Assembly: GCA_947476195.1 (NCBI GenBank)
Contig: CANJPT010000007.1
Coordinates: 1 to 64,000, forward strand
Direction of reading: 5' to 3'
DNA: 64,000 nt
DNA from: Lewinellaceae bacterium
Lineage (GTDB): Bacteria; Bacteroidota; Bacteroidia; Chitinophagales; Saprospiraceae
Positions 11,146 to 57,695 of the stretch are shown here, piece by piece (the first letter of the stretch is position 1; each line of letters opens with the position of its first letter). The notes below the pieces were generated by a model, which was not told where the DNA came from, did not search any database, and worked only from the letters and a program-made list of their open reading frames with translations. A program made the translations under genes and the position numbers.

Positions 11146-11185
11146 GTGCTTAAATTTTTTGCTAAGGAACATGTGAGTCTTACCC

Positions 11186-11276
11186 CACACTACTGGACAT
11201 TTTCTAAAATCGAGACTTATAAGATTTTTGGAAACCTTATAGGTCTGGGGGCAAAACAAAAATGTCCAGTAGTATG
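11186..11276 (+). mobile_element. MITE-like 91-bp element, copy 1, flanked by 9-bp TSD gtcttaccc (11177-11185 / 11277-11285)
   Basis: cacactactggacattttctaaaatcgag...caaaacaaaaatgtccagtagtatg; terminal inverted repeats; perfect 9-bp direct repeat at both edges. Confidence 0.9.
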
Positions 11277-11315
11277 GTCTTACCCACCCAATGATGGAGC
11301 AGAATAAACCATGGG

Positions 11316-29215: not shown

Positions 29216-29319
29216 AATGGATTGATTATGGGACTTTTTACAGTGAGAATGGCCGTGTAAATAAACAAAATGTCAGGTAACACGTTGAGTGTAGCCCTGA
29301 CTTATCACGCCTGCATCAG

Positions 29320-29456
29320 CACACTACTGGACATTTTTGTTTTGCCCAAAGACCTATAAGGCATACTACTGGACATTTTTGTTTTGTCCCCAGACCTATA
29401 AGGTTTCCAAAAACCTTATAGGTCTGTCTCGATTTTAGAAAATGTCCAATAGTGTG
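29320..29456 (-). mobile_element. MITE-like element, copy 2 (137 bp, tandemly duplicated arm), flanked by 9-bp TSD ctgcatcag (29311-29319 / 29457-29465)
   Basis: cacactactggacatttttgttttgcccaaagacctataagg + catactactggacatttttgttttgtcccc...aatgtccaatagtgtg; reverse orientation. Confidence 0.9.
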
Positions 29457-29481
29457 CTGCATCAGTTCAATTAATACATAA

Positions 29482-30422: not shown

Positions 30423-30621
30423 GTGAAAAAAGCGCAAAAAAGCTAAGTTCGGTGCGACAAAAATATTGTATCACTAAAAGTAAAAAATAAAAAGATTAAG
30501 CTGCATCTTTTTAGACCAGGTGCTTATGAGCGTTACATCAAGTTTCCTACTGATGTGAAATTGTTATAGGATTGTGTAGAATGAGTTCCGGGTCAAATCA
30601 CCAGTATTTGGAATCGTCATC

Positions 30622-30712
30622 CATACTACTGGACATTTTCTAAAATCGAGACCTATAAGGCTTCCAAAAACCTTATAGGTCTTGGGGTAAAACAAAAATG
30701 TCCAGTAGTATG
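30622..30712 (+). mobile_element. MITE-like 91-bp element, copy 3, flanked by 9-bp TSD atcgtcatc (30613-30621 / 30713-30721)
   Basis: catactactggacattttctaaaatcgagacctataaggcttccaaaaaccttataggtcttggggtaaaacaaaaatgtccagtagtatg. Confidence 0.92.
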
Positions 30713-30895
30713 ATCGTCATCATTTGCTACAACTATGATCAGCCAGAGAAATCCATCCCAAATCGGATCGTAAGCTTATATAAGCTCTCCTATTGGTCGA
30801 GGTAAAGAGAACAAACCAGTAGAATTTGGAGCCAAGATCCATCAATTGCAGATTGGAGGCTGCAATTCCATCGAACACCTTTGCTTATAGTACTT

Positions 30896-57454: not shown

Positions 57455-57529
57455 ATTTGGTGCAAAGGTAGGAAAAGAAAAAAGTAAGTAGGCAAGTTGA
57501 AAGTTTCAAGTTGAACGTGGGCGAAAGGG

Positions 57530-57620
57530 CACACGACTGGACATTTTCTAAAATCGAGACCTGTAAGGTTTTTGGAAACATTATAGGTCTTTGAGCAAAA
57601 CAAAAATGTCCAGTAGTGTG
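57530..57620 (+). mobile_element. MITE-like 91-bp element, copy 4, flanked by 9-bp TSD gcgaaaggg (57521-57529 / 57621-57629)
   Basis: cacacgactggacattttctaaaatcgagacctgtaaggtttttggaaacattataggtctttgagcaaaacaaaaatgtccagtagtgtg. Confidence 0.92.
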
Positions 57621-57695
57621 GCGAAAGGGACATGCCTTAATCTACTCGCTGTAATTTGCTTCTTACCTACGAACCTACTTTTCTACCTTCGCCCT

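Follow-up and report, generated by a model that had tools for sequence, protein, structure and literature searches.

The 91-bp repeat at positions 11186-11276 of the window, the 64,000-nucleotide part of contig C7 analysed here, is very probably a non-autonomous IS4-family mini-transposon, the ends of which form a shell that has acquired different local hairpins on many independent occasions. Sequence comparison indicates that such elements spread by transposition with 9-bp duplications, that they have their ends in common with an IS4-family insertion sequence (IS), and that the interior is in at least two cases an independent repeat. We rate a MITE with an IS4 parent as a known kind of element, of which this is a new member, and the exchangeable hairpin interior as the new part. 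The origin of bacterial MITE interiors has been little studied, the usual account being the decay of one parent IS. Here, a single set of ends with a parent of known type surrounds about twenty interiors that are unrelated to one another and for the most part palindromic, and two or more of the hairpins exist without the ends. How MITE interiors originate and how REP-like hairpins spread thereby become questions that can be tested within one bacterial family, and a repeat of high copy number, which annotation would otherwise list just as an unknown intergenic repeat, gains a name and a parent.

From left to right, copy 1 consists of a left terminal inverted repeat CACACTACTGGACATTTT (11186-11203, plus strand), found also at the ends of the IS4-family parent; a putative left subterminal stretch CTAAAATCGA (11204-11213, plus strand); a hairpin core GACTTATAAGATTTTTGGAAACCTTATAGGTC (11214-11245), read as captured cargo, with the family consensus GACCTATAAGGTTT-loop-AAACCTTATAGGTC; a right subterminal stretch TGGGGGCAAAACA (11246-11258, plus strand); and a right terminal inverted repeat (11259-11276, minus strand; AAAATGTCCAGTAGTATG as read on the plus strand). 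By eye, the TAAAAT within the left subterminal stretch is similar to the parent IS at the inner side of its right end, CATTTTGTAAAATTG. Identical 9-mers, gtcttaccc, abut the element at 11177-11185 and 11277-11285, exactly where an earlier reading of the sequence alone (the sequence-only reading) had placed them. The element is short, carries no transposase gene and has 18-bp terminal inverted repeats, as expected of a MITE, and the 91-mer folds much more strongly than its dinucleotide shuffles (z -7.2). Two sub-threshold Rfam matches to plant-type microRNA precursors were taken as artefacts of the palindrome.

The same architecture, each time with its own 9-mer in place of the target-site duplication GTCTTACCC of copy 1, had been reported at 29320, 30622 and 57530. 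All of these duplications are present, as are the 91-bp elements of copy 3 (30622-30712, plus strand; ATCGTCATC at 30613-30621 and 30713-30721) and copy 4 (57530-57620, plus strand; GCGAAAGGG at 57521-57529 and 57621-57629). Copy 2 (29320-29456, minus strand; outer duplication CTGCATCAG at 29311-29319 and 29457-29465) departs from that description, since its 137 bp are a composite: a truncated copy (29320-29361) comes first and an almost complete one (29362-29456) second. The composite probably arose by a nested insertion and then deletion or recombination. The inner stem exists as described, but the sequence-only reading missed that it is a separate repeat and that other hairpins occupy the same ends elsewhere.

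The home genome, of a member of the Saprospiraceae, is a 4.76-Mb draft of 224 contigs, in which a probe for one element end (at most 2 mismatches) found at least 77 copies. Both ends could be resolved in 66 non-overlapping copies. Of these, 52 had a 9-bp duplication with up to 2 mismatches (39 perfect, 11 with 1 mismatch and 2 with 2 mismatches), and duplication lengths other than 9 gave 0-1 matches. When left and right flanks of different copies were paired crosswise, none of the 4290 combinations fell below 2 mismatches (the best value, reached by 25 pairs), so these duplications are not due to chance. About one-fifth of the home copies have no matching duplication, for which decay or recombination would be the expected cause. 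Exactly 91 bp were counted in 57 home copies, with a mean identity of 94% to their own consensus, and the target 9-mers tend to begin with G and to end with C, in the home genome as in others. A simple ORF test placed 48 of 53 copies between ORFs, compared with 21% of points drawn at random from the same DNA, and the median distance to the nearest ORF was 30 bp. One copy (L293) splits a dispersed repeat that is unbroken at the corresponding point in the paralogues L272 (82% identical over 142 bp) and L260, and the filled site carries the duplication AAATCAGGA.

An origin by transposition, as first proposed from the window, is thus upheld by the genome-wide 9-bp duplications, the mostly intergenic placement and the uninterrupted paralogous empty site. 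The term MITE is equally justified by the small, gene-free structure, the fixed duplication length, the high copy number, the empty sites and a parent with the same ends. Flanking duplications accompany the copies genome-wide, and the uninterrupted paralogues of one site within the same genome argue against the element being a fixed part of conserved sequence.

The parent was found in relatives. Exact CACACTACTGGACATTTT, scanned against 85,488 species genomes, occurred among the matches listed mostly in Saprospiraceae and Neolewinella, and an IS of approximately 1.2 kb (1.19-1.26 kb) in relatives has the same ends, CAYACTACTGGACAT(TTT), as the 91-bp element. One such IS (L135, 4434-5628) is 1195 bp long, has both ends exact and a single ORF for a 372-aa transposase, and is flanked by no recognisable 9-bp duplication. 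Another, of 1255 bp (L211, ends CATACTACTGGACAT), is the one full autonomous copy that is cleanly testable for a target duplication, and it has a perfect one of 9 bp, CCTTCTAAT, on both sides. A 1191-bp contig of Neolewinella antarctica (L312) runs almost exactly from end repeat to end repeat, as expected of a collapsed multicopy IS. The transposases of L211 and L312 are 52% and 39% identical to that of L135. For all three proteins, NCBIfam NF033591 (IS4) was the best match, with 146, 127 and 140 bits for L135, L312 and L211 (E-values 1e-42 to 1e-36), all slightly below the curated cut-off of 152 bits; Pfam DDE_Tnp_1 scored above its cut-off for the L135 transposase. In four proteins, D100, D164 and E269 are invariant, as are the residues of the IS4 signature Y(2)R(3)E(6)K (Y262, R265, E269 and K276). 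Searching the PDB by sequence with the transposase gave nothing useful. The parent, to which the sequence-only reading had given no family name, accordingly appears to be an IS4-family IS: like IS10, IS50/Tn5 and ISLpn9-like elements, it combines a DDE transposase bearing this signature with terminal inverted repeats of about 18 bp. IS10 and IS50 generate a 9-bp target duplication, in which the 91-bp element resembles the IS4 family, while differing from it in being gene-free. The exact 18-bp end sequence is also present in six IMG/VR viral contigs (L202-L207), in which a pair scan recognised no short paired element.

No intact transposase of the parent type was found in the home assembly, a 224-contig draft, which together with the parent IS in relatives agrees with the earlier view that the element encodes no transposase and is non-autonomous. 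The assembly does contain a 205-bp deletion derivative of the parent IS (G000:C215, L008 1046-1250), flanked twice by GTTACCGTG and 87% identical to the left end of the L135 IS; the home genome therefore once held the parent. The transposase may since have been lost from this strain, or it may lie in an assembly gap. Matches to PF01609 in the home genome (L031-L035) were rejected as parents since none carries these ends, and an end-like site with 3 mismatches in L031 belongs to another repeat.

The interior of the home element has an existence of its own. Its core, GACCTATAAGGTTT-loop-AAACCTTATAGGTC, has no match to IS interiors, whereas the 205-bp home element does match, and the 91-bp element thus lacks the parent-derived interior of a classical internal deletion. 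Of 150 genomes of the order, 26 contain the general hairpin ACCTNNNAGGTTT...AAACCTNNNAGGT (reversed-pattern control, 0) and two contain the exact 15-bp end, namely the home genome and that of N. persica (G189), the latter without the hairpin. The other 25 genomes with the hairpin have no exact 15-bp end, nor a shell in the contexts viewed, and the hairpin is accordingly free-standing in other families of the order. Within the home genome, almost every hairpin copy seen is part of an element, full or decayed. Among home copies, the loop (element positions 40-49) faces either way with respect to the asymmetric backbone and has at least four sequence variants, including the orientation pairs TTTTTGGAAA and TTTCCAAAAA and TTTTCAAAAA and TTTTTGAAAA; this suggests that the hairpin flips within the element or was inserted both ways. 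Within the same 26 genomes, loci L233-L258 represent a free-standing intergenic hairpin family, RACCTNNNAGGTTT-loop-AAACCTN'N'N'AGGTY, whose middle triplet tends to be genome-specific (ATA, TAT, GAC, TCA, GAA, CGC and others) and is complementary on both arms, each arm being itself a small dyad.

Interiors in other genomes were surveyed in a sample chosen solely by end sequence, in which 60 elements have duplications (0-2 mismatches). Together with four added genomes, these were assigned by BLASTN to 20 interior groups, of which one is masked or unreadable and one a bare 20-bp remnant. Most interiors are palindromic and fold far beyond mononucleotide shuffles, a coarse control (z about -4 to -20), while a minority, among them those of L109, L128 and L166, are weakly palindromic. 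Compared with the three IS sequences, the interiors gave chance-level short matches alone, except for the 205-bp home remnant. Examples include palindromes GGACGCTTGGAGG in N. antarctica, CGCTGGAACGCTGTTCCGGC in SJ208, CACGCAAAGACGCAAAG in JPNG_metabat.63 and AACACATAGGCACATAG in KLAP56. Among the loci inspected, a REP-like core, CCCTCTCCG...CGGAGAGGG, lies within the ends at 2 loci in N. persica and at 4 each in N. aurantiaca and Co_bin.246. It lies outside the ends at 2, 4 and 4 loci, respectively, and one more copy in Co_bin.246 is cut by a contig end. The flanking context of the free cores differs from that of the shell-enclosed ones. Independence of the core from the ends was checked for ACCTNNNAGGT, for the REP type and for a few single cases, and partly for most of the others; a GACGCAAAG hairpin occurs in just 2 of 150 genomes. 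The ACCTATAAGGT hairpin of the shell contains another long palindromic element, with ends GGTATGTACACAAGTT, at L097, L133, L187 and L124, and the resulting composites measure 387-436 bp.

In KLAP56 (L116, L137 and L142), shells of the kind described here have the CACATAG hairpin as their interior, and a home copy (L267 1446-1536, G000:C12) sits in one arm of a CACATAG hairpin that is free of ends. A Saprospiraceae-type end with a CACATAG core was also seen in another phylum, in Thermoanaerobaculia bacterium MAG.385 (L119), where it is probably a binning error.

We propose that an IS4-type transposase acting in trans would recognise the 18-bp ends CAYACTACTGGACATTTT, excise the element and reinsert it at a new, mostly intergenic site, where a 9-bp staggered cut in the target would leave the 9-bp duplication. 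Mobilisation would follow the cut-and-paste chemistry of IS10 and Tn5. As a shell, the IS4 ends would take up various local palindromic repeats many independent times, and single combinations of shell and hairpin would then be amplified within a genome. A hairpin could be acquired by inserting into the shell or by being copied in during faulty repair of the excision gap. The chances seem evenly balanced that the IS4-type ends of Saprospiraceae are, more broadly, a modular carrier that repeatedly captures mobile hairpin repeats of differing origin, two selfish layers spreading jointly as a bacterial counterpart of cargo-capturing MITEs.

The 91-bp element might instead be an ordinary deletion MITE, the two ends of one IS with the middle deleted and an inner palindrome that arose by drift. 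The TAAAAT beside the left end, with its likeness to the right end of the parent IS, would fit such an origin, and the home genome does hold one true deletion derivative in the 205-bp element. However, the interior of that derivative matches the IS and the interior of the 91-bp element does not, the hairpin of the 91-bp element is free-standing in other families of the order, and further elements with these ends contain unrelated palindromes, all of which makes simple deletion improbable. Far more remote still is the idea that these are fixed REP- or BIME-type repeats of intergenic regions without transposon ends. A hairpin core and intergenic placement are what such repeats would present, but the target duplications already refute this reading, and the exact ends, the empty site and an autonomous IS with the same ends are equally at odds with it.

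Capture of hairpins by IS4 ends could have proceeded by secondary invasion, in which a minimal two-end shell came first and REP-type hairpins with an enzyme of their own inserted later. This is one route within the preferred explanation, and we consider it tenable though somewhat short of an even chance. It would account for the short shells of 49-56 bp (L114, L120 and L144), the two loop orientations relative to the flanking backbone, the REP-like hairpin that is both free-standing and shell-enclosed in the same genomes, and the second palindromes nested inside the first (L097, L133 and L187). Nevertheless, we did not retain the short shells as ancestral empty ones, since they can equally be read as later deletions of longer elements (compare the 49-mer of L144 with L130), and neither a filled and unfilled pair at the same position nor a hairpin insertion footprint was found. 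Selection may also have shaped what is seen: hairpins acting as terminators or insulators could reduce the cost of insertion near genes, with hairpin-free shells being lost. Strong folding of most cores and the location of copies between genes, at a median of 30 bp from the nearest ORF, are in line with this functional retention, yet convergent genes flank just 10 of the 43 copies scored and no T run follows the stem, and we regard it as unlikely.

Searches of the open-access literature found neither the end sequence ACTACTGGACATTTT nor a description of MITEs in Saprospiraceae. Bacterial MITEs have been described as remnants of one parent (review PMC10969869), as has the Cardinium MITE with its IS982 parent (PMC9769881). 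These MITEs resemble the 91-bp element in being short, gene-free and intergenic, with inverted repeats and target duplications, and in being moved in trans; they differ in deriving from a single parent, whereas the present end family encloses about twenty unrelated interiors (PMC10969869, PMC9769881). BrickBuilt of Porphyromonas gingivalis (PMC4596501) is likewise a MITE of the Bacteroidota that is always intergenic and has a repeat, a 23-bp minisatellite, as its interior. It has, however, a single tandem-repeat interior in one species, and the abstract of that report mentions no 9-bp duplication, in contrast to the range of palindromic interiors within the present ends (PMC4596501). An exchangeable hairpin interior is described neither in the review (PMC10969869) or the abstracts of the two reports (PMC4596501 and PMC9769881) nor in the open-access literature searched. 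The cargo hairpins themselves are short dispersed palindromes, as are the REP repeats associated with REP-associated transposases, but REPs are without the IS4 ends and 9-bp duplications that accompany the shell-enclosed hairpins (PMC3733652, PMC2817692).
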